64,000 nt of DNA from Candidatus Tectimicrobiota bacterium (GCA_016192455.1 JACPUC010000028.1:46260-110259), one strand, 5' to 3'. Shown: positions 46,116 through 62,369, numbered from the stretch's first letter. A program made the numbers and translations. The notes: generated from the sequence alone by a model not told the origin.

Positions 46116-46192
46116 GCGCCAGTAGCTCAGCAGGACAGAGCAGCGGACTTCTAATCCGCAGGTCGCAGGTTCGAGCCCTGCCTGGCGCGCCA
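46116..46192 (+). tRNA. tRNA-Arg (anticodon UCU)
   Basis: A 77-base cloverleaf with encoded CCA. Acceptor GCGCCAG pairs with CTGGCGC, the anticodon stem GCGGA/TCCGC encloses CTTCTAA with anticodon TCT reading AGA, and the T arm reads GCAGG-TTCGAGC-CCTGC. It reads a rare codon in a GC-rich genome. Confidence 0.96.
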
Positions 46193-46352: not shown

Positions 46353-47684
46353 TCACACGGGGGCAACCCAGTCAAAGATGCGCGGCGCCTGGACTTCGGT
46401 TGTCAGCGCTTGGGTTGCCACCTCCACGAGGGCGCGGCGGAATTTTCGCTCCTCCTCTTCAGGCAAGTCGGGATTGCCGACCGGATGGGTGATGCCGGCG
46501 CCTCTGATGATGCGTGGCGCACCCACCATCATGGCCACGGAGGTCAGGGTGGCGATGAGTGCGGTCGGCAGGCCGTTGGCCTCCAGCTCCTTCGCCATCG
46601 CTGCCCCGCAGCGCACCCCGGTGCCTCACGTGGCGGTGAGGATGACGCCGTGCACGCCGTGGGCGCGCAGTTCCTGCGCGATGCCACGGGCCATCGCTTG
46701 CGCCTTCTCGAGGTAGGTGGCGCAGCCGGCGGTGGTGTAGAGTCGATCATGCAGCGCGCCGATGGCCCCCGCCCGCTCCAGCTCCCGCAGTACGTCGAGC
46801 GGCACGAGGCGATTCGGGTTGTCGAGCGCATGCGTCTTGTCATAGCCGGCGTGGATCGTTTCGTATCTTCCGGCCTCGAACTGGTCCTCCCGCCCGATCT
46901 CATAGGAGGCGTAGCGGCTCGACCGCAGGGACGGCAGGTGATCAGGGTTGCCGCGCGGCACCAGGCCGCTCTCCGTCACCAGGGCGAGGCGCGCCCGCCG
47001 CAGATCGGCCAGCGGGGGAGCGCAGGTCACGAGAGGAGGCGGCTGGAAGGGGACCTCCGTCTTGAACGCTTCTCCCGCCAGCTTGCGCAGGAGCATGGTG
47101 ACAGCGCGCTGCGAGGCGAGCTCGGTCTGGGGGACGTTGACGCGGACGCCGCGCGGCAGGCAGCCCTCCGCCTCGCCGCCGAGGAGGGCTTCCCCCCGTC
47201 CCAGCCGCAACGCCAGGGCCGCCATGGTGGTCAGCGCCTGCCGCATGGACGAGGCGCTGGGACCGGTGCGGACGATGGCGAGGGAACGTGAGCGCCGAAA
47301 GAACTCAGCGGCGGGGTTCTCTTCATGCAGCCCGGTAAGGGCAGGAATCCCGAAGCGCTCATGCACCGCCGTGCACATGGCACCGCAGGCCAACCCGTAG
47401 CGCCCGGCGTTGAAGGCCGGCCCGGCGATGAAGAGCGCGGCATCGCAGGCCTGCATGAGTTCGAGGGCACAACGCACCGCGCGCTCCTCCTGCTCGGCCA
47501 CATAGTTGTCGCCGCAGATGATCGTGGCGACAATCCGCGCCTGCTGGCCGAGCTTCTCCTGCAAGGAGACTCCGGGGCCGACGGGACCTTCCCGCAGCCG
47601 CGGCTCGAGATGCGCCTGCGATTCGCCTCCAAGCTGCCCGAAGAACTGGTTCAGGTAGTGCACGATCCTGATGGGCGGGCTCAC
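46353..47684 (-). CDS. GrdB-like selenoprotein (glycine/sarcosine/betaine reductase component B family), in-frame UGA = Sec353
   Basis: Read through TGA at 46626-46628, the gene gives 443 residues from GTG 47684 (AAGGGGG eight bases upstream), close to the length of GrdB (about 436). The active-site segment is VILTAT-U353-GTGVRC359. Clostridial GrdB reads UGTCTRC, so the Cys three residues after Sec is replaced by Gly356 while the second Cys remains. Other family features are present: IVHYLNQFFGQLGGE at the start, AALFIAGPAFNAGRYG, ALDNPNRLVPLDVL and PRIIRGAGITHPVGNP. It is the last gene of a probable operon hyuA-hyuB-grdE-grdB. No GrdA, GrdC or GrdD accompanies it, so a standard glycine-type reductase is not encoded here. 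The exact reaction is unknown. Confidence 0.82.
46599..46613 (-). promoter_or_regulatory. Bacterial SECIS-like hairpin of the grdB-like gene
   Basis: CGCUGC pairs perfectly with GCAGCG around a GGG loop. The loop begins 18 nt after the UGA and starts with G. Confidence 0.68.
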
Positions 47685-47720
47685 CGTGCGTGCCCCCTTA
47701 TTTCACGTAGACGGGTGCGA

Positions 47721-47774
47721 GGGAGCCGCGCCCCCTCGCGCTCCCCTATTACGCAAGCTGCCGCGCAGCTTGCG
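47721..47774 (-). other. Two hairpins in the grdE-grdB spacer
   Basis: On the minus strand a perfect 10-bp stem with a three-base loop (47752-47774, CGCAAGCTGC and its complement) is followed by a 6-bp GGGAGC/GCTCCC stem (47721-47745). The spacer is 105 bases. They may mark an RNA-processing or attenuation site between the two genes. Confidence 0.5.
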
Positions 47775-47789
47775 GCGAGATCGTAGCTC

Positions 47790-49049
47790 TCACAGTGGCA
47801 CAGCGCGCAGCCGGGTGAAGCCGAGGGAGCTGTTGCTGTTGGGGATGTAGGAGATGGAGACAGTGGTTGCGGCATGCGGGTCGCCGTTGATGGCGGCGAA
47901 GGTGTCCCCTCCCAGGAGGCGCGAGGCCGCCGGCAGGTGGACGCGCTCCTCGATGTTGCCGGCGCTGACGATGGCGTCGGCGGCCGCCCGCAGGTCGATG
48001 AGCGGCAGACCCTCTCCCGCTTCGTTGAGCTGTTCGCTGTCGATGAGGACGGTTTTCACGCCGGCACGCTCGCAGGCCTCGCAGTGTTCCATCAGGTCGT
48101 AGTCGCCGGCGCCGGCCGCCTCCTTGGTCATCACCACCCCGTCCGCCCGCAGCGTCTGCCGCAGCAGGCGCGCCGCCAAGCGGGCCGCGCGCTGCTTGTC
48201 CTCCAGGCGGACCGGCTGCGGGGCGAGCACCAGGCCGCGGAAGTCGAGCTGCTCGCCGTGCAGCCGCAGGAGATCCTCGACGAGTGGATGGCGTTGGTAG
48301 GAGTAGGTGTTGTTCTTTACTCCCGGAGGCATGTCGTAGTGGAACGAGACGACCGCGCCATCGAGCATCTCCGTCGGTTGCAAGAGGAACGGCAGGGCCT
48401 CCCGGATGCGCGCGCCGTAAACGAAGGTCTCGCGCAGGTCGCCGATGCCGTGGAGGAGGCAGAGGTAGGCCACCTTGGGGAGCGGAGAGGCGAGGGCGCC
48501 GTCGCCACTGCGAGGGTAGGTCTCGCGCCGCGGCGCGGGATTGCCGAGCGCCAGGCGGGCAAGGTAGACCGCCGCCCGCAGACCCGCCGCGCGCACGGCC
48601 CGGCAGTAGGCGAGCTTGTTCATGCCGGCGGCCGGCCTGGTGCGCAGGACGACCTGGTGCAGATCGGCAAGGGGGGTGAGCTGGCGGGTTTCGGCATGCA
48701 GGTCGAGGAGGCCGCCGACAACGCCGGCCATCTCTCCCGTTTCAACCACGGCGACGCCGCGCAGCACCCTGGTCACGCCTTCCCCCACCAACCCCGGCGG
48801 CGCCACCCAGGAGGGGAAATAGGACCCATCCTCCTTAACGCAGGGCTCGCAGATGTCAAGGACGTTGAGGATGCGCGACCCATCCCCCGGCGCGGCCAGC
48901 TCGACGCGCACCTCGGCGAGACCGCTGCGCTCTTCAAGGTGGCGCTCGAGTTCGGCGCGGTCGATGACGAGCGTCGTTCCCCGCAAGCAGGAGGCGGGGC
49001 CGAAGCAAACCGCCTCGATCGGGTAGAGCTGCTTCTCTAGCGTCAGCAT
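47790..49049 (-). CDS. GrdE-like glycine/sarcosine/betaine reductase component B proprotein homologue
   Basis: From ATG 49049 (AGGGAAGAG upstream) the 419-residue product starts MLTLEKQLYPIEAVCFGPASCLRGTTLVI, as in GrdE. CVKEDGSYFPS, ALPFLLQPTEMLDGAVVSFHYD and the C-terminal VSISYIPNSNSSLG follow. In clostridial GrdE the chain is cut before a Cys in NNTC (about residue 242) to form a pyruvoyl group. Here the segment reads KNNTYSY, with Tyr249 in place of the Cys. The pyruvoyl cofactor therefore probably cannot form in the known way. The gene starts 26 bases after hyuB stops and precedes grdB. Confidence 0.8.
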   Translation of the reverse strand: MLTLEKQLYPIEAVCFGPASCLRGTTLVIDRAELERHLEERSGLAEVRVELAAPGDGSRILNVLDICEPCVKEDGSYFPSWVAPPGLVGEGVTRVLRGVAVVETGEMAGVVGGLLDLHAETRQLTPLADLHQVVLRTRPAAGMNKLAYCRAVRAAGLRAAVYLARLALGNPAPRRETYPRSGDGALASPLPKVAYLCLLHGIGDLRETFVYGARIREALPFLLQPTEMLDGAVVSFHYDMPPGVKNNTYSYQRHPLVEDLLRLHGEQLDFRGLVLAPQPVRLEDKQRAARLAARLLRQTLRADGVVMTKEAAGAGDYDLMEHCEACERAGVKTVLIDSEQLNEAGEGLPLIDLRAAADAIVSAGNIEERVHLPAASRLLGGDTFAAINGDPHAATTVSISYIPNSNSSLGFTRLRAVPL

Positions 49050-49075
49050 GAGGCTCTTCCCTGGCAACCGGGGAC

Positions 49076-50824
49076 TCAGGCGCGGCGCGTCCACTTGCGC
49101 AGCGCCTCCGTGGCCGGCAGATCGACGTTCAAAGTGAGCGGGTCAATGACCACCCCGTACAGCTCGCGCGCCGCCGCCGGGGTCACGTAGCCATTCGCCA
49201 CGTCGTCCGCGACCAGCTCGATGGCGCGCTCGAAGGGATCGCCGAAGCCTCCCCCGCCGCTCGAGGCGACTTCGAGCACGTCGCCGCTGCGCAGTTCGTA
49301 GAGGGCGTTGACGTCGATCTCCCGCTCCGTCCCATCCGGGCGTCGCAGGCTCAGGTGCGAGAGGACGCCGCCGCGGCCGCCGGCCAGGCCCGGCGGCGTG
49401 GTCTCGGGGCGCAGGCCCCCGCCGGCGGTGGCGCAAAGCACCTGGTCCGTCTCCATGCGCCAAATCGCCCTCGTCCCCAGCCCGCCCCGCCACTTGCCGG
49501 CGCCGCCGCTGTCCGGACGGTATTCATAGAGAAGCTGGGTGTACGGGTAAACAAACTCGAAGAGCTCGGGGTCCGCCGCACGTGCTCCGCCGGAGGAGCT
49601 GATGGGGCCGATGTGCCCCCAGCCATCGTAGCCCTCCGTCGCGCCCGACCCCGGCTTGCACTGGTTGCTCAAGCTCGCCGTCCAGCGGCCGGTGCGGGGA
49701 TTGTAGGCCGTCTTCATGGGGCCGCACCAGCGGCCCCAGGGGGCCTGCACCTGGCTGGGCACGGCTTGCGCCAGGGCCAGCCAGCCGGCCTCGACCAGGG
49801 CGGCGCAGGTGACGAGGGTGCAGCCGCTGGTGGCGGCGGGCGGACGCGGGTTGGTGACGGTCCCGTCGCGGGAGATGACGGAGACGGGCGCGGTCGAGCC
49901 GGCCGTCACCGGCACCTCATCCTGGAGCGACGAGAAGAGGGCGATGTAGGTGCAGGAGGTGGTGTTCGACAGCGGGCTGTTCACGTAGCCCTTCACTTGG
50001 GGGTCGGATTCGGAGTAGTCGAAGGTGATCGCGTCCTCGTTGACGGTGAGGGTCAGGCGGACGCCGACGAGGCGGTCCTTGACGATGCCGTCGTGATCCA
50101 AGAACCGCTCCGCCTTGTAGACGCCGTTCGGGATGCGGCGGATTTCGCGCCGCATCTGCTCCTCGGTACCTTTCAGGTAGGTCTCGATGGCCGTCCCGAC
50201 CAACGCCATGCCGAACTTCGCGGCCAGCCCCTGGAGTCGGCGCTCACCCACCACGCAGGCGCCGATCTGGCACTGCAGGTCGCCCTCGACGATGTCCGCC
50301 AGGCGGATGTTGAGGAGGAGGAACTCCCACAGATCGCTGCGCCGCACTCCCCCCTCGTACAGCTTTACGGGAGGGATGCGGATGCCTTCCTCCCAGACGT
50401 TGCTGGCCTCCGGGTTGTACCCCGACGATCCCTTCGCCCCCACGTCGGCGTGGTGCCCGCGCGTCATCACCCAGAAGGCGACGTCGCCGGCGACCATGAC
50501 CGGTTTGGCGACGGTGAAGTCGGGAAGGTGATTGTTGCCGTGGAAGGGGTCGTTGAGGAGGTAGACGTCGCCGTCGCGGATTTCCTCCCGAAAGCGCGCC
50601 GCGATGGCATCCATGGCGAACGGCGTCGATCCCATGAGAACGGGGATGAACGCCGTTTGGGCGACGAGGCGCCCCTGGCGGTCGAAGATGGCGGTGATGA
50701 AGTCACGCACCTCGCTGAAGATCGGCGAGCGCGAGGTGCGCAGCATGCTCTCGGCCATCTCGCGGGTCACCGTCTGCAAGGTGCTGACAATCAGCGCCAA
50801 CTGAATGGGGTCTGGCTTGGTCAT
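49076..50824 (-). CDS. hyuB: Hydantoinase B / 5-oxoprolinase B-type subunit (HyuB)
   Basis: The 582-residue protein from ATG 50824 overlaps the hyuA stop (ATGA). It has the HyuB start DPIQLALIVSTLQTVTREMAESMLRTSRSPIFSEVRDFITAIFD and metal- or substrate-region segments LNDPFHGNNHLPDFTV and MTRGHHADVGAKGSSGYN. The tail is rich in Gly (LEVASSGGGGFGDPFERA). HyuA and HyuB together carry out ATP-dependent opening of a cyclic amide such as hydantoin, N-methylhydantoin or 5-oxoproline; relatives also include acetone and acetophenone carboxylase subunits. The exact substrate is not readable. Confidence 0.92.
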   Translation of the reverse strand: MTKPDPIQLALIVSTLQTVTREMAESMLRTSRSPIFSEVRDFITAIFDRQGRLVAQTAFIPVLMGSTPFAMDAIAARFREEIRDGDVYLLNDPFHGNNHLPDFTVAKPVMVAGDVAFWVMTRGHHADVGAKGSSGYNPEASNVWEEGIRIPPVKLYEGGVRRSDLWEFLLLNIRLADIVEGDLQCQIGACVVGERRLQGLAAKFGMALVGTAIETYLKGTEEQMRREIRRIPNGVYKAERFLDHDGIVKDRLVGVRLTLTVNEDAITFDYSESDPQVKGYVNSPLSNTTSCTYIALFSSLQDEVPVTAGSTAPVSVISRDGTVTNPRPPAATSGCTLVTCAALVEAGWLALAQAVPSQVQAPWGRWCGPMKTAYNPRTGRWTASLSNQCKPGSGATEGYDGWGHIGPISSSGGARAADPELFEFVYPYTQLLYEYRPDSGGAGKWRGGLGTRAIWRMETDQVLCATAGGGLRPETTPPGLAGGRGGVLSHLSLRRPDGTEREIDVNALYELRSGDVLEVASSGGGGFGDPFERAIELVADDVANGYVTPAAARELYGVVIDPLTLNVDLPATEALRKWTRRA

Positions 50825-52932
50825 CGGGAGGCCCCTCGGAGGCGGGCAAGGAGATCGTCGAGCGATGCTCCCGCCTGCAAGAGCAAGAAGTTGCCGTACT
50901 CGTCCACCTGCGCCTGGAAGGCCGGACTGATGACGATGCTGGTGGTCGGCAGCTCGATGATGGCGGGACCCTCGAGGCAATTGCCGTACTCGAGCCGCAC
51001 GCCGTCGTAGACGGGCGTGAGGGTGGGGGTGGGATCGAAGAAGACCTGCCGCCGTTCGATCAACGCCGCCGTCGCCTCCCGGCCCCGCCGCGGCAGGCTC
51101 TTGAAGCGCGGCTTCTCCGTCATCCCCTCGGCGGTGAGGCGCACGGTGATGACCTCCATGGGCACCTTGGGCAGATGGTAGCCGAAGAGGGCGTCGTGGC
51201 GGTGATGGAACAGGGCGGCCACCCGCCGCAGCTCCTCCTCCGTCACCGGCGCGTCGCCGTGGGGGAGGTCGATCTCGACTTCGTTGAATTGCCCCTCGTA
51301 GCGCATCTCGAACGACACCGTCAGGCGCATCCTCGCCTCCGCCACCCCCTCGGTGCGGAGCATCGCCGTGCCCTCCGCGGTCATGGCCGCCAGGGTCTCG
51401 TTGAGGCGGGCGACGTTCACCTCCGACAGCCGGCCCGGCATGGAGCGCACGAACTGGTGCTTCAGATCGGCCATCAGCATGCCGGCGCCGCAGAAGAGCG
51501 CCGATTCCTTCGGCACGATGATGAGGGAGATGTTAAGCTCGCGCGCCAAGGGTTCGGCGTGCAGCGGCCCCGCCCCTCCCGCGACCACCAAGGCGAACTC
51601 CCGCGGGTCGTGGCCGCGGCGCACCGACAGGAGGCGCATGGCCATCGCCATGGTGGTGTTGACGACCTTGTAGATGCCCCAGGCGGCCTCCTCGACGGTG
51701 AGTCCCAGGGGGCGCGCCGTGTGCTCCGCGATGGCGGCGCGGGCGCGGGCGGCATCGAGCAGCAGCTCGCCGCCGAAGAAGCGCTCCGGGTTGAGGTAGC
51801 CGAGCACCAGGTCGGCATCGGTGACGGTTGGCTTCTCGCCCCCGAAGGCGTAGCAGGCGGGACCGGGCATGGCGCCGGCGCTGGCCGGGCCGACGCGCAG
51901 CACGCCCGCGCCGTCCACCCAGGCGATGCTCCCGCCGCCGGCGCCGACCGTGTGGATGTCGAGGCTCTGCGCGGCGATCCGGTGCCCCCCCACCTCGGCC
52001 GCCGTGGTCAGCGACATCCTGCCGTGGTGGACCAGGGAGACATCGAAGCTCGTCCCCCCCATGTCGATGGTCATGAGCTCTTGCAGTCCGTGCTGTCGGC
52101 CATAGAACAGCCCGGCGACGGGACCCGCCGCGGGACCCGACAGGAGCGTCTGCACCGCCAGGCGCTGCGACACCCGCGGCGCCACCACGCCGCCGTTCGA
52201 TTGCATCAGCCGCAGCTCGCCGCGGAACCCCGCCGCCGCCAGGCGCTCCACGAGGTCGTCCAGGTAGGCGCTCAACACCGGCCCCACGGCCGCGTTCAGC
52301 ACCACCGTGCTGGTGCGCTCATAGGCCCGCACCTGGGGCAGAATGGCGCTCGAGACCGAGAGGTAGCACGTCGGCAGGACTTCGCGACACAGCTCGTGGA
52401 GTCGCTCCTCGTGGGTGGAATTGAGGAACGAGAAGAGGAGGCTGATGGCGACCGCCTCGACGCCGCGCCGGCGGAACTGCTCGAGCGCCTCCCTGGCGCA
52501 GGTCTCATCCAGCGGCAGCACGACGGCGCCGTCGCGGTCGACGCGCTCGCGCATGCCGGCGATGAGCGAGCGCGGCACCACCGGAGGCGGCGGGTTCACC
52601 TTGGCATAGTAGTAGGTCTCGCGCAGGCCGCGCCGCATCGCCAGGAGGTCCCGAAAGCCATCGGTAGTCAGCAGGGCGGTGCGGGCCAAGCGGCCCGTCA
52701 ACACGGCATTGGTGGTGATGGTGGTGCCGTGGACGATGAGGCTGACGCTGCCGAGAAAGGTGGGGAGATCGCTGCCGAAGGTTGCGGCGGCCTTCCCCAG
52801 GCCGTCGATCACCGCCTTGGCGGGGGATTCCGGAGTGCTGAGCACCTTGAAGAGCCGGCTCTGGCCCTGCTCGTCCATGACCACGAAATCGGTGAACGTC
52901 CCCCCGACATCGATTCCAACCTTGACTCGCAT
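50821..52932 (-). CDS. hyuA: Hydantoinase A / 5-oxoprolinase A-type ATP-binding subunit (HyuA)
   Basis: From ATG 52932 (GAGGGTGACC upstream) the product has 703 residues, the family length. It opens with VKVGIDVGGTFTDFVVMDEQG, the ASKHA-type phosphate loop, and includes TLLSGPAAGPVAGLFYG, TIDMGGTSFDVSLVHHG and DIHTVGAGGGSIAW. It is the first gene of the operon. A -35/-10 pair with a 16-bp palindrome in its spacer lies about 140 bases upstream, next to the divergent TetR gene, so repression by that regulator is likely. Confidence 0.94.
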   Translation of the reverse strand: MRVKVGIDVGGTFTDFVVMDEQGQSRLFKVLSTPESPAKAVIDGLGKAAATFGSDLPTFLGSVSLIVHGTTITTNAVLTGRLARTALLTTDGFRDLLAMRRGLRETYYYAKVNPPPPVVPRSLIAGMRERVDRDGAVVLPLDETCAREALEQFRRRGVEAVAISLLFSFLNSTHEERLHELCREVLPTCYLSVSSAILPQVRAYERTSTVVLNAAVGPVLSAYLDDLVERLAAAGFRGELRLMQSNGGVVAPRVSQRLAVQTLLSGPAAGPVAGLFYGRQHGLQELMTIDMGGTSFDVSLVHHGRMSLTTAAEVGGHRIAAQSLDIHTVGAGGGSIAWVDGAGVLRVGPASAGAMPGPACYAFGGEKPTVTDADLVLGYLNPERFFGGELLLDAARARAAIAEHTARPLGLTVEEAAWGIYKVVNTTMAMAMRLLSVRRGHDPREFALVVAGGAGPLHAEPLARELNISLIIVPKESALFCGAGMLMADLKHQFVRSMPGRLSEVNVARLNETLAAMTAEGTAMLRTEGVAEARMRLTVSFEMRYEGQFNEVEIDLPHGDAPVTEEELRRVAALFHHRHDALFGYHLPKVPMEVITVRLTAEGMTEKPRFKSLPRRGREATAALIERRQVFFDPTPTLTPVYDGVRLEYGNCLEGPAIIELPTTSIVISPAFQAQVDEYGNFLLLQAGASLDDLLARLRGASR

Positions 52933-53068: not shown

Positions 53069-53098
53069 ATTTTAGACCGACCAGTCGGTCAATGTAAA
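53069..53098 (-). promoter_or_regulatory. hyuA operon promoter (minus strand)
   Basis: Minus-strand TTTACA (53093-53098) and TAAAAT (53069-53074, five of six) are separated by 18 bases. The palindromic operator fills 16 of those 18, so a bound repressor would block RNA polymerase directly. Confidence 0.62.
53075..53090. promoter_or_regulatory. Perfect palindromic operator, probable TetR-family binding site
   Basis: GACCGAC-CA-GTCGGTC is an exact inverted repeat. Its form (7-bp arms, 2-base centre) and place beside a divergent tetR gene are typical of TetR-family operators. Confidence 0.72.
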
Positions 53099-53266: not shown

Positions 53267-53923
53267 ATGCCGCGGGTACAATCAAAAACGGACATCCTTG
53301 AGCGGCGACGACAGATCGCCCAGGCGGCATCGCGTGTCTTCAGCGAGAAGGGGTATGACGCCTGCACCCTGGATGACATTGCAGGGCTCCTGGACCTAAA
53401 GAAACCGTCCCTCTACTACTATATCAAGAGCAAAAAAGAGATCCTCTCCATCGTCCTCGATTTCGCCATTTCCGAGGTCTCCAGCAATCTCGAAGCCATT
53501 TGCCAATCGCAGGTGGATCCGGCTGAGAAACTTCAACGCGCGGTGGCGAATCATTTGAATACCCTGATCCGCCACTTCCACCCCGTCCGCGTGTACCATA
53601 ATGAACGCAAGGCCGTCTCCGCCAGCTACCTTTCAACCTACATTGCCAAACGTAAAAACTACGAGGTGATGTTTAAAGGTATCCTGCGCGAGGGAGTGCA
53701 AAAGAAACTCTTTTCGGTAAAGGATACCCGACTGACGACTTTTATGATTCTCGGCATGTGCAATTGGATCACGCAATGGTATCGACCCGGCGGGCCGCAC
53801 ACTCTTCCCGAAATTATTGGAGAGTTTACTGCCTTCATCCTCAGGGGCTTGGGATTAACGGGCAGAGCTGAAGACACCAATCGAAGAAGGCGAGGACGCA
53901 ACGATGGACTACGATCTTCCTGA
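53267..53923 (+). CDS. TetR/AcrR-family transcriptional regulator
   Basis: The 218-residue protein has the N-terminal TetR helix-turn-helix (RRRQIAQAASRVFSEKGYDACTLDDIAGLLDLKKPSLYYYIKSKKEIL) and a helical ligand domain with a TetR_C-like end. It lies back to back with hyuA across a region carrying a perfect palindrome, so it probably represses both itself and the hyu-grd operon. On its own strand it overlaps the acyl-CoA dehydrogenase gene by 20 bases, so it is co-transcribed with the acyl-CoA genes. TetR proteins with acyl-CoA genes often sense an acyl-CoA; that is inference here. Confidence 0.92.
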   Translation: MPRVQSKTDILERRRQIAQAASRVFSEKGYDACTLDDIAGLLDLKKPSLYYYIKSKKEILSIVLDFAISEVSSNLEAICQSQVDPAEKLQRAVANHLNTLIRHFHPVRVYHNERKAVSASYLSTYIAKRKNYEVMFKGILREGVQKKLFSVKDTRLTTFMILGMCNWITQWYRPGGPHTLPEIIGEFTAFILRGLGLTGRAEDTNRRRRGRNDGLRSS

Positions 53924-55061
53924 CGAGTTGAAGCTCCTCCAACAAACGATCCGCCGCGTCGTCTCCGAGCATATGATCCCCCTCGAGCCGATTACCCCCG
54001 AGGATGAGGACATTCCCGCCGATTTGCGGGCCAAGCTGGAGCAGATGGCGAAGGATCAAGGGTTGTGGTTGCTCTTCATTCCTGCAGAGTATGGTGGCGC
54101 TGGCCTCAGCATCTTTGGGCAGGTTATCGTCTGGGAAGAGGTCTCGAAAACGGTCCTCATTCCATTCCGCAAAGATAGTATTTTCGGTCCGGAAGGGTGC
54201 TCCATTCTCTTCCTCTGCAACGACCAGCAGAAAGAACGCTACCTGTATCCCGTCATTCGGGGCGAGCGGGTGCCCTGTTTTGCCACCAGTGAACCCAACG
54301 CAGGTTCCGATCCTTCAGCCATGACCACCACGGCGGTGAAGGACGGCTCGAGCTACCTCCTCAACGGCAAGAAGACCTGGGTTACAAGTGGCGATAAGGC
54401 CGATTTCGTTCAGGTTGTCGCCGTCACCGACCCCGCCAAACGTCAGCGCGGCGGCATCACTGCCTTTCTGGTAGACATGGATACTCCAGGGTTGACGATT
54501 ACCGGCAAGTTCGAGCTGATGATGGAAGATCGTCCGAACGAGTTCACCTTCGAGAACTGCCGCGTGCCGGAAGCCAACATCCTCGGCGAGATAGGCCAGG
54601 GGTTTGTGATCAGCCAGACCTGGATCACCATGGGTCGGCTCCGTCAAGGGGCAAAGGCGCTCGGCGTGGCGCAGCGCTGCCTTGATATGGCCATCGAGTA
54701 TGCGAAGCACCGCGTCACCTTCGGGAAACCGATCGCCACCCGCCAGGCGGTTCAGTTCATGATCGCCGATTCTGAAGTTGAGCTTCATGCGGCGCGCCTC
54801 ATGGTGTACCACGCCGCCCAGAAGCTCGACAAGGGAGAGGATGCCCGCCACGAGGTGTACATCGCCAAGCTCTACGCCAACGAGATGGTCGGCCGGGTTG
54901 TCGATCGCGCCTTGCAGATTCACGGCGCGATGGGGTTAAGCAAGGAGCTGCCGCTGGAACGCTGGTATCGAGACGTGCGCAGCCGCCGCATCACGGAAGG
55001 TCCGTCGGAGATCATGCGGTGGGTGATCGCGCGCAAGCTTCTGGGCAGGGTTTCCGACTAG
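53904..55061 (+). CDS. Acyl-CoA dehydrogenase
   Basis: The 385-residue flavoprotein starts at ATG 53904 inside the end of tetR. Family motifs are present: FIPAEYGGAGLS, CFATSEPNAGSDPSAMTTTAV (FAD and acyl-CoA contacts), GKKTWVTSGDKADF, the helical C-terminal domain with RVTFGKPIATRQAVQFMIAD, and the catalytic glutamate in ITEGPSEIMRWVIARKLL. It introduces a C=C bond beside the CoA thioester, which the following crotonase would hydrate. Chain-length or branched specificity cannot be told from sequence alone. Confidence 0.92.
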   Translation: MDYDLPDELKLLQQTIRRVVSEHMIPLEPITPEDEDIPADLRAKLEQMAKDQGLWLLFIPAEYGGAGLSIFGQVIVWEEVSKTVLIPFRKDSIFGPEGCSILFLCNDQQKERYLYPVIRGERVPCFATSEPNAGSDPSAMTTTAVKDGSSYLLNGKKTWVTSGDKADFVQVVAVTDPAKRQRGGITAFLVDMDTPGLTITGKFELMMEDRPNEFTFENCRVPEANILGEIGQGFVISQTWITMGRLRQGAKALGVAQRCLDMAIEYAKHRVTFGKPIATRQAVQFMIADSEVELHAARLMVYHAAQKLDKGEDARHEVYIAKLYANEMVGRVVDRALQIHGAMGLSKELPLERWYRDVRSRRITEGPSEIMRWVIARKLLGRVSD

Positions 55062-55164
55062 CGGCCTCGCCCCCGACACCCAGCCGCGCTACGTACGGCC
55101 GGGCGGGCAACCGTGAACTGCAAATCCAGGCGGCGGGTCCTCATTCCTGAAGAGGAAGGCAACC

Positions 55165-55980
55165 GTGGCATACGAGAACATCAGGATCGAAACACAAGAC
55201 AAAATCACCACCATCACCCTGAACCGACCCGAGCAACGCAATGCCCTGAGCCCCGATTTGCACCGCGAGATGGATCGCGCGCTTGATGATCTCGCCGTTG
55301 ACGAGGCAACGCGGGTCGTTGTCTTGACCGGCGAGGGAAAAGCCTTCTGTGCCGGGCAGGACCTGAAAAAGTTCTTCGCGGAGACGTATGATGATCCGCT
55401 GAAATCGAAGCACCTCACGGCCATCGCCATGCGCTGGGGTCGCAAGCTGCGCCTCTTCCCCCGCCCGACGATCGCCCGGGTGAACGGCTTTTGTTTCGGC
55501 GCCGGGCTGCGCATCATGGGCTTGTGCGACTTTGCCATCGCGGACGAGGCGGCGATCTTCGGTCTCTCCGAAATCAACTTCGGCATCATTCCGGCCGGCG
55601 GCGCGTCGAAAGTGCCGATTGACCTCCTCTCCCACCGTGATGCCCTCTACCTCATTTTGACGGGAGACCGCATCGACGGGAAAGAGGCCGAGCGCATGCG
55701 GCTGATCAACCGCGCCGTTCCGGCCGACCAGCTTAACGGGGCGGTACGGCAGTTGGCCGACAAGCTCCTGCAAAAGAACCCCGTGGCGCTCACCGTGGCC
55801 AAGGAAGTCTTCTGGCGCGACAAGTATATGGAGTACGACGAGGCGGTTGATTGGGAGCTGGCCAAGTTTCAGGAGATGTCGAAGCTCGAGAAAGGAGAAT
55901 GGGTGCAACAGGGCGTCGCGCAGTTTGTGAAAGGAGAGTACAAGCCCGGCTTTGAAGCCTACAAGCGCAAGGAGGAATAG
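55165..55980 (+). CDS. Enoyl-CoA hydratase/isomerase-family protein (hydroxycinnamoyl-CoA hydratase-lyase-like)
   Basis: The 271-residue crotonase-fold protein has the oxyanion-hole segments GEGKAFCAGQDLKKFF and ARVNGFCFGAGLRIMGLCDFAIA, and FGLSEINFGIIPAGGASKVPIDLL. The SEINFGIIPAGGASK region, with no second catalytic Glu of the classical hydratase (GxLGT type), resembles p-hydroxycinnamoyl-CoA hydratase/lyases (feruloyl-CoA type). It could act as a hydratase or hydratase/aldolase on the product of the preceding dehydrogenase. It has AAGAGGAAGG before its start. Confidence 0.86.
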   Translation: MAYENIRIETQDKITTITLNRPEQRNALSPDLHREMDRALDDLAVDEATRVVVLTGEGKAFCAGQDLKKFFAETYDDPLKSKHLTAIAMRWGRKLRLFPRPTIARVNGFCFGAGLRIMGLCDFAIADEAAIFGLSEINFGIIPAGGASKVPIDLLSHRDALYLILTGDRIDGKEAERMRLINRAVPADQLNGAVRQLADKLLQKNPVALTVAKEVFWRDKYMEYDEAVDWELAKFQEMSKLEKGEWVQQGVAQFVKGEYKPGFEAYKRKEE

Positions 55981-56106
55981 CGGAGCAAGGATCCCAGTGC
56001 GGCAGCGCAGAAAGAAACGTGGTCGTCGATTAACCCGCGGTGCAAGTTTGCATGTGGGGTACCCTGCCTGGCAAGTGGTCCCGCATTGCAGGAGGGGGGT
56101 TCAGTG

Positions 56107-57309
56107 ATGAAGGGAAAAGAGTTACGGCTCATCGTCGTTGTGGTGTTGGCGGTGCTCGTGCTCACTGGTTGGAGCGTGCCGAATCTTCAGGCCCAAAACA
56201 CCATCCAGATTGGCCTCCTCACCGAGTTCACCCTGCCCTTCCTGGCGGAATTCAGCAAGAACCAGCAGAAGGCGTTCGACATGGCGCTCGAGGAGGTCAA
56301 TGCTGCTGGTGGCGTCATGGGAAAAAAGCTTGAGCTGGTGACGGAAGAGGTCGGCGGCGGGCTGGACCAGGTTACTGCCGGGGCGGAGAAGCTCATCAGT
56401 CGCAAGCAAGTGCCGCTGATGATCAGCACTCAGTTCAGCACCTTCACCCTGGCGTTGCAGAAGATTACCGAAGCCTACAAGGTCCCCCTCCTTGTCCCGA
56501 TCTCCGGCTCCGATAAGATCACCGAGCAGAACTTGAAGTATACCTTCCGCATTTCGGCGCGCACCGGCATCGCATACGCCGGCATGATGGTGGAGTTCCT
56601 GAAGCGCTACGCCAAGCCGAAGAAAGTGGCGATCTTTTACGAGCAAGGGGGCTATGGGTCTGATTTTGGCCGCAAGGCCAAACTCCTGGTCGAGCAAGCG
56701 GGGTGGGAGATCGTCATGTTCGAGGGCTACAACCCGCGCGCCATCGACTTCAAGCCGCTGCTCACCAAAGCCAAGTCCATTCAGCCTGACGCCATCATGG
56801 TGGCAAACTTTTTCCTCGACGCCGTACTCATGATCCGCCAGGCAAAAGAGATCAACCTCAACACCCTGTGGATCGGCTCGCCGGGGTTCGGTTTTCCCCA
56901 GTTCCTTTCCAAGGACGGCGCCGGCAAAGATGCCGAGTACATCTTCTCCATTCAGCAGTGGAACCCTAACGTGCCCTGGCCGGGTGCGAAAGAGTTTGCC
57001 GAGAAGTTCCGCAAGCGGTACAACATTGATCCCGATTGGAATATCTCCCAACCCTACTACGCCATCCACTTCGTTGCCGACGTGCTGAAACGGGCAGGGT
57101 CGCTCGATCGCGAGAAGATCCGCGCCGCTCTCGTTGCCACGGACATCAAGGAGAGCATGTACGGGCCGATCAAGTTTGACGAACAGGGACAAAACCTGCA
57201 TCCGGTGCTGGTCGCCCAGGTGCAGAACACGCAGTACGTCATTGTCTACCCGACCGACCTCGCCCGTGGCAAGCCGAACCTGACGATTCCACCATGGGAT
57301 AAGCGCTGA
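56107..57309 (+). CDS. LivJ-type ABC transporter solute-binding protein
   Basis: The 400-residue product starts at ATG 56107 (AGGAGGGG upstream; GTG 56104 also possible). It has a signal peptide (LRLIVVVVLAVLVLTGWSVPNLQA) and the Peripla_BP_6 fold: IQIGLLTEFTLPFLAEFSKNQQKAFDMALEEVNAAGGVMG. ISRKQVPLMISTQFSTFTLALQKI and YEQGGYGSDFGRKAKL follow. It lies directly upstream of the two permeases and two ATPases that complete a Liv-type importer. The ligand is likely a small amide, amino acid or aromatic compound; the catabolic neighbours suggest it feeds them. Confidence 0.9.
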   Translation: MKGKELRLIVVVVLAVLVLTGWSVPNLQAQNTIQIGLLTEFTLPFLAEFSKNQQKAFDMALEEVNAAGGVMGKKLELVTEEVGGGLDQVTAGAEKLISRKQVPLMISTQFSTFTLALQKITEAYKVPLLVPISGSDKITEQNLKYTFRISARTGIAYAGMMVEFLKRYAKPKKVAIFYEQGGYGSDFGRKAKLLVEQAGWEIVMFEGYNPRAIDFKPLLTKAKSIQPDAIMVANFFLDAVLMIRQAKEINLNTLWIGSPGFGFPQFLSKDGAGKDAEYIFSIQQWNPNVPWPGAKEFAEKFRKRYNIDPDWNISQPYYAIHFVADVLKRAGSLDREKIRAALVATDIKESMYGPIKFDEQGQNLHPVLVAQVQNTQYVIVYPTDLARGKPNLTIPPWDKR

Positions 57310-57524
57310 GCAAGCGCGCCTCACTCCGCACCCTCATCGCCGTTGGCCGTTCGGGCGCTGCGAGGCAAGGGGGGCGCAGGTTCGCCGGCAAGAACGGCGT
57401 CCGCGCTCCCCTCCCTCCGGCGTTCCCGTCCCGGCCCTGTGGCTGATCGCGGTATCGCGACGAGTGCCGGCCGCGGCGTGGCGGCGGGAGTGCGGGGGGG
57501 GCGCGGAGAGAAACTAGGCTCGCC

Positions 57525-58388
57525 GTGATTGTCCTGCAAGTCCTCATCAATGGGTTGCTTACCGGCGGCATCTATTCGCTCATCAGCGTCGGCTTGGCGC
57601 TGATCCTGGGCACGATGCGCATCATCAACATCTTCCACGGCGAGTTGTTGATGATGGCGATGTACTTGACGTACTGGCTCTATCTCTACATTCATCTCGA
57701 TCCATACGTCAGTGTGCTGATTACGGCTCCGGTGCTCTTCGGCTTCGGCTATGTCATGCAGCGCGTGCTGATAAACCGCGTTCTGGCGCAGCCCGAAGTC
57801 AATCAAGTGCTGTTAACGCTGGGTATCTCCATGGCCTTGATCAATCTATTCCAGCTCTTCTTTTCACCAACATACCGGCAGGTGCGGACAGGGTATTCGA
57901 CGGCGGTTTTGGCTTTTGCTGATGTGAGGATCAGTATTCCCTATACTATCTCTTTTATGCTTGCTTTCGCCTTCACGTTCCTTCTCTATAGCTTTCTCAT
58001 CCGCACGTTCCCAGGGAAGGCTATTCGGGCAACGGCGCAGGATCGTCAGGCTGCGGTCATGATGGGCGTCAACATTGCGACGGTGAACGCGATCTCCTTC
58101 GGCATCGGGGCCGCGCTGGCGGCCGCCGCCGGCTCGCTCCTGGTCCCCATCTACTACATTTTTCCCGGCGTCGGCTTTCCTTTTGCGATCAAGGCTTTTG
58201 TGGTAGTCGTGTTAGGGGGCATGGGGAGTGTTGTGGGAGCGGCGTTGGGCGGAATCATTTTCGGCGTGGTCGAAGCCTTGGGTTCCTTCTTTATCTCGAC
58301 ACGCTACACCGATGCCATCGGCCTGCTGATTTTCATCGTCATCCTTCTGGTGCGCCCCGCCGGCCTCTTTGGGAGGTCGCGCGTATGA
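57525..58388 (+). CDS. Liv-type ABC transporter permease (LivH-like)
   Basis: The 287-residue membrane protein begins at GTG 57525. It has eight or so hydrophobic helices and the LivH signatures LINGLLTGGIYSLISVGLALILGTMRIINIFHGELLMM and FVVVVLGGMGSVVGAALGGIIFGVVEALGSFFIS. It forms the channel together with the next gene. Its last bases overlap the livM-like start (ATGA). Confidence 0.93.
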   Translation: MIVLQVLINGLLTGGIYSLISVGLALILGTMRIINIFHGELLMMAMYLTYWLYLYIHLDPYVSVLITAPVLFGFGYVMQRVLINRVLAQPEVNQVLLTLGISMALINLFQLFFSPTYRQVRTGYSTAVLAFADVRISIPYTISFMLAFAFTFLLYSFLIRTFPGKAIRATAQDRQAAVMMGVNIATVNAISFGIGAALAAAAGSLLVPIYYIFPGVGFPFAIKAFVVVVLGGMGSVVGAALGGIIFGVVEALGSFFISTRYTDAIGLLIFIVILLVRPAGLFGRSRV

Positions 58389-59398
58389 AGGCAGCCTCCC
58401 TGTCGCGGCGCAGCGCTGGACGGATGCAAGGGCGTCGGTTCACTCCCATGAATCTGCTGATAACCATGCCGCTTATCCTACTTCTCCTGCTCGGCGTTCC
58501 CTGGCTCGTGAGCAGCCCCTATTTCCTGGACATCGTCATCCTGATGCTGATGTACATGTTGCTGGGGATGAGCTGGAATCTTTTGGGAGGATTCGCCGGC
58601 CAGATCTCACTCGGTCATGCAATCTTCTTTGGCCTGGGTGCGTATTGCTACGGCTTTCTCATTAACCAGCACCTGACGTCGGTCTGGATCGCTCTTGCCA
58701 GCGGAGCGCTGGCGGCAACCGTGGCCTCGATCCCCATCGGCATCCTCTGTTTTCGCCTGCGGGGTCCCTATTTCGTCCTCGTTACCCTGGCCGCCGCCGA
58801 GGTGGTCAGAATCCTCGCCGTCAACCTCGTCGACCTAACGCAAGGAGCCGAAGGGATGGTGATCACCCCCGCCTTCGGCATCAGCAAGACGCCGTACTAC
58901 TACCTGGCCCTGGCCTTCGTCCTCCTTGAGTTGATCACCATGGTCGTGCTCTGCAGTTCCCGCTTCGGTTACTACTACATGGCGGTGCGCGAGGATGAGG
59001 ACACGGCGCTGGCGATCGGGGTGAATCCGCTGATCCATAAACTCTGGGCCTTTGGCATCAGCGCCTTCTTCGCCGGTCTGACCGGCGCCTTCTATGCGAG
59101 TTACCGCCACGTCATTGATCCGTCAGTAGTCCTCTCTCTCGAACGTTCCGTCGACATCCTTCTCGGGCCGCTCGTCGGCGGCATTGGAACCTTGGCCGGC
59201 CCCTTGGTCGGCGCGGTTATCATGGTCAGCGTCAATGAAGGGTTGCGCTCTCTCTTGGGCGGCGCGTACCTGGTGGCCTACGGCCTCATTCTGGTCGTCA
59301 TCGTGCTCTTCTTCCCCAGCGGCGTCCTGGGGGTGACCCAACGGTTTTTCACCCGCGAAGCGGGCGGTGAGGCAGGCAAGGCCGATGAAGCTGCTTGA
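58385..59398 (+). CDS. Liv-type ABC transporter permease (LivM-like)
   Basis: The 337-residue permease overlaps the previous stop by four bases. It has the LivM features LGMSWNLLGGFAGQISLGHAIFFGLGAYCYGFL, RGPYFVLVTLAAAEVVRILAVNLVDLTQGAEGM and VGGIGTLAGPLVGAVIMVSVNEGLRSLLGG. ATG 58448 is an alternative start without the extra basic N-terminus. Confidence 0.92.
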   Translation: MKAASLSRRSAGRMQGRRFTPMNLLITMPLILLLLLGVPWLVSSPYFLDIVILMLMYMLLGMSWNLLGGFAGQISLGHAIFFGLGAYCYGFLINQHLTSVWIALASGALAATVASIPIGILCFRLRGPYFVLVTLAAAEVVRILAVNLVDLTQGAEGMVITPAFGISKTPYYYLALAFVLLELITMVVLCSSRFGYYYMAVREDEDTALAIGVNPLIHKLWAFGISAFFAGLTGAFYASYRHVIDPSVVLSLERSVDILLGPLVGGIGTLAGPLVGAVIMVSVNEGLRSLLGGAYLVAYGLILVVIVLFFPSGVLGVTQRFFTREAGGEAGKADEAA

Positions 59399-60110
59399 AG
59401 TGCGGGACGTCCAGAAGCATTTCGGCGGGCTTGCGGCCATTCACGGCGTGTCGCTGTCGGTCGATGCCGGGGAGATCGTCAGCATCATCGGTCCCAACGG
59501 CGCCGGCAAGACAACCCTCTTCAACCTCATCAGTGGGTTCGAGCGTCCTGACGCGGGCACCATCTTCTTCAACGGTAACGAGATCAGCGGTCTGTCTCCG
59601 CACCAGATTTGCCGCAGGGGCATCGCCCGAACGTTTCAACTCGTCAAGCCTTTCCATAACCTGACGGTATGGGAGAACGTCATGGTGGCCGGCTTGATGA
59701 GGTTGAGCAAGCGCGACGCCGCACGCCAGGCCGATCGCATCCTGGCCCGGCTGCACCTGAGCGACCGCGCCGACCAGCGGGCGCGCAACCTGACCATCGG
59801 CGCCAAGAAGCGTCTGGAGGTGGCGCGCGCCCTCGCCACCCAGCCGCACTTCATCCTCCTCGACGAGGTCGTTGCCGGTCTCAACCAGCGCGAGACCGCC
59901 GACATGAGTGCCATCATCCGCGACCTGCGCCAGGAAGGCATCTCCACGGTGGCGGCGGTCGAGCACGTCATGCAGATGGTGATGAGCGTCTCCGACCGCA
60001 TCTACGTGCTGAACTACGGCGAATGCATCGCCGAAGGACGGCCGGACGAAATTCGCCGCAATCCCCATGTTCTCGAGGCCTACCTTGGAAGCGACGGTGC
60101 TCTCCGTTGA
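59385..60110 (+). CDS. Liv-type ABC transporter ATP-binding protein (LivG-like)
   Basis: ATG 59385 overlaps the permease stop by 14 bases. The 241-residue ATPase has Walker A IIGPNGAGKTTLFN and Q-loop RTFQLVKPFHNLTVWENV. The signature segment reads NLTIGAKKRLEVARAL, where LPYGQQRRLEIARAL is usual, and the Walker B reads ILLDEVVAGLNQRE, where DEPAAGL is usual (Val for Pro). The key Glu and the lysine of the P-loop are present, so ATPase activity is expected. Confidence 0.91.
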   Translation: MKLLEVRDVQKHFGGLAAIHGVSLSVDAGEIVSIIGPNGAGKTTLFNLISGFERPDAGTIFFNGNEISGLSPHQICRRGIARTFQLVKPFHNLTVWENVMVAGLMRLSKRDAARQADRILARLHLSDRADQRARNLTIGAKKRLEVARALATQPHFILLDEVVAGLNQRETADMSAIIRDLRQEGISTVAAVEHVMQMVMSVSDRIYVLNYGECIAEGRPDEIRRNPHVLEAYLGSDGALR

Positions 60111-60843
60111 TGGGATAGACGTAGCGTACGGCGTCGGATTCCCGACCCTGCGCAACGTCTCGCTGCGCTTGCCCGAGGGGGAGATCATCGCCCTGGTGGG
60201 GAGCAACGGCGCCGGCAAGACCACGCTCCTCAATACCATCTCCGGATTGCTGCGGCCCTCGCGCGGCGGCATCAGGCTGCGCGATACCCCCCTCCACCTC
60301 CTCCCTCCCCATGAAGTGGCCGAGCTCGGCATCGCCCACGTGCCGGAAGGCCGCAAGCTCTTTCCCATGATGACGGTGGAAGAGAACCTGCACATGGGCG
60401 CCTATACGCGGCGTTCCCGGCCGCACCTGGCCGCCATGATCGAATCCGTCTACGATCTCTTCCCGGTGCTGCGGGACCGGCGGCGTCAGTACGCCCGCAC
60501 CCTCAGCGGCGGCGAGCAGCAGATGGTGGCGATCGGCCGCGGCTTGATGTCGATGCCCGAGATCATCATGTTCGATGAACCCTCCCTCGGCCTGGCGCCG
60601 CTGATCGTGCGCGAGATGTTCGAGGTCATCAAGCGCGTCAACGCCGAGGGGAAGACTGTCTTCCTGGTGGAACAGAACGTGCGCTTTGCCCTTGGCATCT
60701 GCCACTATGCCTACATTCTCGAACAAGGGCAGATCATCGGCAGCGGCAAGGGGCAAGACCTCCTGAACGACGAGTTCATTCAAACCTCGATCTTGGGGAC
60801 GGGGTTGTCGAACTCCGGGATGGACAGTCAGGCCGACGCCTGA
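60067..60843 (+). CDS. Liv-type ABC transporter ATP-binding protein (LivF-like)
   Basis: The 258-residue ATPase completes the importer. Walker A VGSNGAGKTTLLN, signature RTLSGGEQQMVAIGRGLM and Walker B IIMFDEPSLGLAP are all canonical, with EGRKLFPMMTVEENL typical of LivF. The ATG at 60067 overlaps livG by 44 bases; GTG 60097, closer to the first conserved strand VLSVDGIDVAYG, is a likely alternative start. Confidence 0.91.
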   Translation: MFSRPTLEATVLSVDGIDVAYGVGFPTLRNVSLRLPEGEIIALVGSNGAGKTTLLNTISGLLRPSRGGIRLRDTPLHLLPPHEVAELGIAHVPEGRKLFPMMTVEENLHMGAYTRRSRPHLAAMIESVYDLFPVLRDRRRQYARTLSGGEQQMVAIGRGLMSMPEIIMFDEPSLGLAPLIVREMFEVIKRVNAEGKTVFLVEQNVRFALGICHYAYILEQGQIIGSGKGQDLLNDEFIQTSILGTGLSNSGMDSQADA

Positions 60844-60956
60844 GGCTCACATCGAGGCGGCTGCTTCCGGCGCGGCGTTCTTCCGGTCGCGCCGGCCGTC
60901 GCGAAGAGGCCACGGTTGCCCCGGGGTCGGGCAGCCTCCCCCCATGGGATCACAAT

Positions 60957-62369
60957 ATGGATGAGCGTCTGCGCGCCTTGATGTTCCCCCGCTCGATCGC
61001 CGTGATTGGGGCCTCGGCCAATCTCGCCACCATCGGCGGGCGCCCCCTGCGCCTGCTGCGCAAGCACGGCTTCAAGGGAAACCTCTACCCGGTGAACCCG
61101 AAGTACGCGGAGATCGACGGCCTGCGCTGCTACCCCTCCATCGGCGCGGTGGGCGAGGCGATCGATTGCGCCCTCATCGCCTTGGGACGCGACCAGGTCA
61201 TCCCGGCGCTGGAAGCGTGCGCCGCGGCGGGAGTGCGCGCGGCCACGGTCTTCTCGAGCGGCTTCGCGGAGGTGGGCGGCGAGGGTACCCGCCTGCAACA
61301 GGAGATGACCAACCTCGCCCGCCGCACCGGCCTGCGCATCAACGGCCCGAACGGCATGGGCGTGATGAACTTCAAGGAGGGCGTGGTGGCGACGTTCTCC
61401 AATTCCGCCGAGCTGGAGCGGGTGCGGCCCGGCAACCTCGCCCTGGTGGCGCAGAGCGGCGGCCTGGCCGGAGCCTTGCTCGACCGCTCCCACGAGCTCG
61501 GCCTGGGCGTGAGCCACGTCGTCTCCACCGGCAACGAGGCCGACGTGGAGGCGAGCGAGTACCTCGAGTACCTCGTCGAGGACCCAGCCACCGAGGTGGT
61601 CGGGGCCTACATCGAGGGATTTCGCAACGTGGAACGGTTAGGCCGGGTCTGCGAGCGCGCGGCGCAGAAGCGCAAACCGATCATCGTGCTGAAGGCCGGC
61701 AGCTCCACGATCGGGAGGGAGATGGCGGCCTCGCATACCGCCGCCGCCACGGGCTCCGACGACATCTACAACACCTTCTTCCGCCGCCACGGCATTATCC
61801 GCGTCGCTGACCTCGACGAGCTCATGGGCACGGCCTCCCTGCTGACACGCTACCGGCACGCCGCCGGCACGCGCCTGGGGGTCTTTTCCGCCTCGGGCGG
61901 AGCCGCGGTGCTCATCGCCGACGAGTGCGCGCGGCACGGCATCGAGCTGCCACCGCTCGCCCGGGAGACACAGCAGGCGCTCGCCCCGCTCGTGGGCGCC
62001 TTCTCCACCCTGATGAATCCCTTTGACCCCACGGGACAGAGCTACAACGATCCCAGTCTGGTCAAGACGACCTTTGAAATCTTTCTCCGAGACCCGAATT
62101 TCGATTGGATTCTCTTCCTCATACCCACGGTGGCCCTGCGCATGGCCGACCTCTTCGTCGACTACCTCCTCGACACCGCGCCGCAAACGAGCAAGCCGGT
62201 GCTGGTCTACTGCATCGGAGGGTCCCTGTCGAGCCCGGTCTTCACGGCCTTGCGCGACAGTCCCCTGCCCTACTACCGGTCGCTCCGCACCTGCTTCCAG
62301 GCCTTGGCGGCCGCCCTGCGCTACCAAGACTTCCTCGGCAAGCGGCAGCACGCGAAGGGGTTGCGATGA
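60957..62369 (+). CDS. NDP-forming acyl-CoA synthetase alpha-type protein
   Basis: The 470-residue protein has the CoA-binding domain (MFPRSIAVIGASANLATIGGRPLRLLRKHGF), the succinyl-CoA synthetase-like flavodoxin fold (ALVAQSGGLAGALLD) and the phosphorylated-His segment in EMAASHTAAATGSDD. It corresponds to the alpha part of ADP-forming acetate/acyl-CoA synthetases; no ATP-grasp beta part follows. The beta subunit may be encoded elsewhere, or this lone alpha protein does another job. It ends in an ATGA overlap with the LLM gene, so they are co-translated. Confidence 0.88.
   Translation: MDERLRALMFPRSIAVIGASANLATIGGRPLRLLRKHGFKGNLYPVNPKYAEIDGLRCYPSIGAVGEAIDCALIALGRDQVIPALEACAAAGVRAATVFSSGFAEVGGEGTRLQQEMTNLARRTGLRINGPNGMGVMNFKEGVVATFSNSAELERVRPGNLALVAQSGGLAGALLDRSHELGLGVSHVVSTGNEADVEASEYLEYLVEDPATEVVGAYIEGFRNVERLGRVCERAAQKRKPIIVLKAGSSTIGREMAASHTAAATGSDDIYNTFFRRHGIIRVADLDELMGTASLLTRYRHAAGTRLGVFSASGGAAVLIADECARHGIELPPLARETQQALAPLVGAFSTLMNPFDPTGQSYNDPSLVKTTFEIFLRDPNFDWILFLIPTVALRMADLFVDYLLDTAPQTSKPVLVYCIGGSLSSPVFTALRDSPLPYYRSLRTCFQALAAALRYQDFLGKRQHAKGLR

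Follow-up and report, generated by a model that had tools for sequence, protein, structure and literature searches.

Gene organization of the hyuAB-grdEB locus

The window analysed in this study, a 64,000-nucleotide stretch of a Candidatus Tectimicrobiota genome (GCA_016192455.1), contains four consecutive minus-strand genes, hyuA, hyuB, grdE and grdB (Table 1). Their identities and positions, proposed in an earlier note from the sequence alone, were borne out by gene calls and by Pfam and NCBIfam searches. The same was true of the ATGA overlap between hyuA and hyuB, seen as TCAT on the plus strand, and of the 26 bases from the end of hyuB to the start of grdE. Absent from that description was a 105-bp gap between grdE and grdB with two strong hairpins inside. 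No intrinsic terminator was found in the gap, and the hairpins were present as a single copy within the window when searched as a repeat family. Such a gap could break off transcription, which is a point against coupling of the two gene pairs. Arguing for coupling are the tight spacing, the common strand and a promoter-like site (weak by itself) upstream of hyuA only, with a palindrome between its two hexamers next to a divergent TetR gene, and from this layout we infer that hyuAB and grdEB are co-transcribed. No riboswitch or other Rfam element was detected in the operon. The only such element nearby was a tRNA-Arg (TCT) gene (46116-46192, plus strand), which lies on the strand opposite to grdB, about 160 bases past its end, and represents a possible integration site.

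Table 1. Coordinates of the genes and predicted elements of the locus, counted from the first base of the window
Feature	Position	Strand	Description
Divergent TetR-family regulator	53267..53923	+	TetR_N and TetR_C_24 (Pfam)
Candidate promoter TTTACA-18-TAAAAT	53069..53098	minus	Consensus scan; 1 found against 0.7 expected, weak alone
Palindrome GACCGACCAGTCGGTC, candidate TetR operator	53075..53090		Between the -35 and -10 hexamers
hyuA	52932..50821	minus	703 aa; ATP-binding subunit of ATP-dependent amidohydrolase
hyuB	50824..49076	minus	582 aa; metal-site subunit
grdE-like	49049..47790	minus	419 aa; component B alpha subunit
Two hairpins in the grdE-grdB gap	47690..47789	minus	MFE -46.2 kcal/mol, z -2.07
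grdB-like selenoprotein	47684..46353	minus	443 aa; component B beta subunit; GTG start
Final stop of grdB	46355-46353	minus	
In-frame UGA (Sec)	46626-46628	minus	Within grdB; motif TATUGTGVRCG

For the palindrome upstream of hyuA, the exact sequence GACCGACNNGTCGGTC occurred once in the window, against 0 expected. The TetR gene leads a plus-strand gene row (53267-62369) that includes an acyl-CoA dehydrogenase, a branched-chain-type ABC transporter and an acyl-CoA synthetase. A p-hydroxycinnamoyl-CoA hydratase/lyase in this row scored 318 bits against a cut-off of 276. The predicted operator is possibly common to the hyuAB-grdEB operon and the divergent hydroxycinnamate-type operon. Because the TetR gene heads a row of this content, a regulator common to the operon and aromatic-acid breakdown is possible.

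HyuAB resembles ATP-dependent ring-opening amidohydrolases

Pfam searches assigned Hydant_A_N, Hydantoinase_A and Hydant_A_C domains (PF05378, PF01968 and PF19278) to HyuA and Hydantoinase_B (PF02538, 495 bits) to HyuB. The top solved relatives of HyuA were the caprolactamase subunit CapA (6yra, 484 bits) and an N-methylhydantoinase (7hk5, 458 bits), and the same two structures matched HyuB with 333 and 232 bits, respectively. In alignments, HyuA retained the residues corresponding to Asp11 and Asp295 of the CapA ATP site, and D41, H99, D102 and H124 of HyuB were identical to the four metal ligands of CapB (reference residues from PMC8453981). Given these solved relatives and the retained ATP and metal residues, HyuAB is probably an active ATP-dependent ring-opening hydrolase. 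It shares both subunits, the ATP-site aspartates and the metal ligands with the known enzymes of this type (N-methylhydantoinase, caprolactamase CapAB and 5-oxoprolinase), but it is sited beside grdEB and falls below the caprolactamase equivalog cut-off of 1000 bits (693 and 395 bits). The genome encodes 20 HyuA genes, and the nearest among eight paralogues compared was 46% identical to the HyuA of the operon.

GrdE and GrdB form a divergent component B

The paired grdE and grdB products matched Gly_reductase (PF09338, 313 bits) and GRDB (PF07355, 433 bits), respectively. GrdB cleared only the general model TIGR01918 (462 bits against a cut-off of 65) and failed all substrate-specific cut-offs, scoring 413 of the required 602 bits for glycine, 472 of 800 for sarcosine (GrdF) and 439 of 775 for betaine. 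The top NCBIfam model for GrdE was the sarcosine subunit GrdG, at 217 bits against a cut-off of 780; one Clostridium GrdB and GrdE likewise scored under the sarcosine cut-offs. An identity as FarEB was rejected, with GrdE at 146 bits against the FarE equivalog cut-off of 675. No sequence relative of GrdB was found in the PDB.

Two conserved GrdE cysteines have been tied to processing and the pyruvoyl group, and a Schiff base with the amine has been described for glycine and sarcosine, whereas FarE and the betaine subunit GrdI are without those cysteines (PMC10838667). A cysteine pair (GNC-VSAC) was present in 52 of 112 aligned GrdE sequences, and its conservation leads us to infer that these columns are the processing cysteines. 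The window GrdE has Tyr and Gly at these positions, both cysteines are also absent from the two other GrdE copies of the genome (contigs C5 and C31), and the first is absent from a Brevibacillus locus with the top betaine score. Since GrdB stays under all three substrate-specific thresholds and GrdE is devoid of the Cys pair, a free-amine substrate is less likely for the window GrdEB.

The pair nevertheless shares with glycine, sarcosine and betaine component B (GrdE/GrdB, GrdG/GrdF and GrdI/GrdH) the protein family, the Sec position, the U-x5-C context and the paired alpha and beta genes. Besides the scores and the missing GrdE cysteines, it differs in that its GrdB retains one of the two CxxC cysteines and forms a deep separate branch with the C5 copy. 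In a tree of 122 GrdB sequences, these two proteins (56% identity) joined with an SH-aLRT of 95 and were not part of the large clade that holds the clostridial-type glycine reductases; the join is tentative because both branches are long.

The internal UGA of GrdB is read as selenocysteine; together with its context it recurs at all GrdB loci that fit the motif, in dozens of relatives. Genes for Sec decoding are present as well, namely a tRNA-Sec that exceeds the Rfam gathering score (75.5 bits) and SelB (366 bits, cut-off 242). The hairpin following the UGA, a candidate SECIS, has a 6-bp stem whose energy was not under that of shuffled sequences (z 0.89). Other selenoprotein-like frames were noted in the same genome: a PrdB-like protein of about 295 aa with the motif CFPLUPACH (L017:15600-16487, minus strand) and, downstream of the C5 grdEB, a frame with the motif GDUGSC resembling the UGSC selenoprotein family (L016:14908-15570, plus strand). 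Many short PrdB-like matches with one TGA were observed in the phylum of a Rokuibacteriota genome (G059).

GrdA and GrdC are encoded elsewhere in the genome

The earlier note had regarded GrdA, GrdC and GrdD as missing. None of them adjoins the operon, and no GrdD was found in the genome assembly (4.46 Mb, 88% complete) with either PF02504 or NF040747; GrdA and GrdC, on the other hand, are both encoded on contig C1. The GrdA gene (C1:114841-115269) has its own in-frame TGA (motif CFVUTAAG), and GrdC lies directly upstream. Both proteins passed their equivalog cut-offs (GrdA, NF040748, 198 against 130 bits; GrdC, NF040746, 646 against 450 bits). A new, non-standard reductase can thus no longer be argued from missing partners, and the alternative named in the same note, a normal reductase with its partners elsewhere and matching expression, is largely borne out at the level of gene content, with grdD as the exception. 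Since no PF02504 match whatever was obtained, PlsX also seems absent or unassembled in this genome. Two further full GrdEB pairs, on contigs C31 and C5, bring the GrdB copies to three, and these three substrate modules would share the one GrdA/GrdC locus.

GrdD was also absent, at the cut-off, from 14 of 16 comparison genomes, nine of which have GrdA and GrdC within the loci examined; Coprothermobacter platensis (L041) and one delta-proteobacterial bin (L036) were the two that had it. Among 71 grdC genes, 34 had a grdD within 4 kb, nearly all in Bacillota and a few in other anaerobes. The grdC loci without a nearby grdD came from Rokuibacteriota, Chloroflexota, most deltaproteobacterial bins, Paenibacillaceae and Nealsonbacteria, several of the 71 stopping too near a contig end to be judged. 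The active-site cysteine of GrdC (Cys277) and one histidine (His446) were conserved in all 70 sequences compared, with or without GrdD. With GrdD missing from 14 of the 16 genomes and from many grdC loci, the GrdD-less Grd set is not peculiar to this genome and is common outside clostridial-type fermenters (L014:10353-11852 and the 71 grdC loci).

Additional component B operons that use shared A and C proteins are documented. In the farACEB fluoroacetate reductase of Cloacibacillus porcorum, an additional grdE/grdB-type pair likewise occupies an operon that has no grdA, grdC or grdD. That system has Sec in GrdB and a GrdE-type subunit without the processing cysteines, and it is thought to use GrdA and GrdC encoded elsewhere in the genome (PMC10838667). 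It differs in that the far operon has no hyuAB but includes a radical SAM gene along with a transporter, and the window GrdE is far under the FarE cut-off. The operon is best understood as adding one more substrate module to a reductase of known type whose components A and C are encoded elsewhere, and not as a new machine.

Is hyuAB coupled to grdEB?

In a survey of grdB neighbourhoods, of the kind suggested by the earlier note, the arrangement was seen in the window only. Among 125 distinct grdB sites, HyuA or HyuB was found within 6 kb of grdB in no other case; 82 of these sites had at least 4.5 kb of upstream sequence, so that the pairing stands at one of 82 loci. No conserved hyuAB-grdEB operon was present in the 80 GrdB loci of a first survey, in 32 regions from the phylum of the Rokuibacteriota genome or in another 20 taken from two further phyla. 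The sole HyuA in the first survey (L064) lay more than 5 kb from grdA. Closer relatives were not available in the samples: outside the own genome, GrdE identity reached at most 41% across three samples with 1181 genomes in total, and at most 36% in a broad sample of 386 genomes. The conservation test is therefore weak rather than negative, since true orthologues with a closer GrdE are absent from the sampled genomes. No description of a hyuAB-grdEB pairing was found in the literature searched, a search that had most subscription journals outside it. With the pairing in none of the 81 other loci and 20 HyuA copies in the genome, a functional coupling of HyuAB and GrdEB is plausible but unproven.

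The same two observations also fit an incidental neighbourhood, in which an ordinary HyuAB, one of about 20, precedes an orphan component B pair by chance, perhaps through a rearrangement beside the tRNA-Arg directly downstream of the operon, with the two enzymes serving separate pathways. The closest grdEB, the C5 pair, also has no hyuAB nearby. Such incidental neighbourhood is unlikely in our judgement, if well worth considering. It would have to produce same-strand genes with an ATGA overlap, a 26-base spacing and a single candidate promoter upstream of hyuA, and a rough estimate puts chance adjacency at about 1% (3 grdEB loci x 20 hyuAB over about 4400 genes, same strand), for a site that was chosen after the fact. 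Furthermore, apart from the own C5 copy, the loci behind the lack of conservation share no more than 51% GrdB identity with the window.

Creatinine-type and other pathways

The logic of anaerobic creatinine breakdown, invoked in the earlier note, gained one element and lost another. In this pathway, HyuAB would open N-methylhydantoin to N-carbamoylsarcosine, the C31 amidase would release sarcosine, and a sarcosine reductase composed of the window or C31 GrdEB with GrdA and GrdC would follow. An amidase-like gene (L015:7345-8175, plus strand), whose top solved relatives are the N-carbamoylsarcosine amidohydrolases 26st (136 bits) and 1nba (127 bits), was indeed found 49 bp upstream of the C31 grdE-grdB pair, and no such neighbour occurred at the other 124 grdB sites. 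The HyuA match to N-methylhydantoinase and the sarcosine models that top the lists for both GrdE and GrdB fit this route as well. Clostridium sp. FS41 is known to have it (PMC4417704), and it has been annotated in Tissierella creatinophila (PMC5364220); in the present case, a hydantoinase-type pair, an N-carbamoylsarcosine-amidase-like gene and a sarcosine-type component B likewise meet in one genome. In FS41, too, the component B cluster is apart from A and C; that strain, however, has only the HyuB-type subunit gene, with an ATP-independent enzyme, and its GrdC and GrdD are fused (PMC4417704), whereas the present genome lacks GrdD and has its genes at scattered sites. Plain sarcosine reduction is argued against because the GrdE cysteines linked to the pyruvoyl group and amine binding are missing from all three copies in the genome. 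The window pair is far under the sarcosine cut-offs, a shortfall that the Clostridium pair mentioned above also shows, and the HyuA match to CapA is no worse than that to N-methylhydantoinase. Taken together, we regard this route as improbable.

A new ureido-acid reductase would be another way of joining the enzymes. HyuAB would convert a hydantoin-type ring into an N-carbamoyl (ureido) acid, GrdEB would cut its C-N bond directly with release of a urea, and the GrdD-less GrdA and GrdC would pass the acetyl group to a thiol; we consider this quite improbable. The version of the earlier note, a reductase or transferase acting on the ring-opened product directly and without GrdA, GrdC and GrdD, agrees with the absence of all three genes from the operon but is very hard to maintain, given that GrdA and GrdC with intact Sec or Cys are encoded in the genome and that known systems share A and C among several component B modules (PMC10838667).

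A proposed role for the operon

We slightly favour the reading that the operon provides one of the three GrdEB modules of a glycine/sarcosine/betaine-reductase-type selenoenzyme, along with a HyuAB that would probably make the substrate ready for it. The gene identities, the Sec codon, the GrdA and GrdC genes, the active-site residues and the missing GrdE cysteine pair can be read from the sequence; a single pathway for HyuAB and GrdEB, the succession of reactions and a substrate lacking a free amine are proposals. HyuA would activate a lactam, imide or hydantoin with ATP, and the metal site of HyuB would convert the activated ring into a carboxylate. The Sec of GrdB would then attack the carbon next to the carboxylate and expel the leaving group; possible substrates that lack a free amine would be N-carbamoyl acids or other alpha-substituted acetates. 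The resulting Se-carboxyalkyl group would pass to the GrdA selenoprotein encoded on contig C1 and on to the active-site cysteine of GrdC. Because GrdD is absent, the group may finally be handed to CoA or a different thiol and not to phosphate.

The occurrence of GrdA/GrdC/GrdE/GrdB sets without GrdD in many phyla raises the question of how the complex releases the acetyl group in these organisms. In the locus described here, a Grd-type component B module has an ATP-driven ring-opening enzyme as its neighbour, in a bacterium other than the amino-acid-fermenting anaerobes in which such reductases were studied. If the coupling is true, cyclic amides would be substrates of selenium-dependent reductive cleavage.
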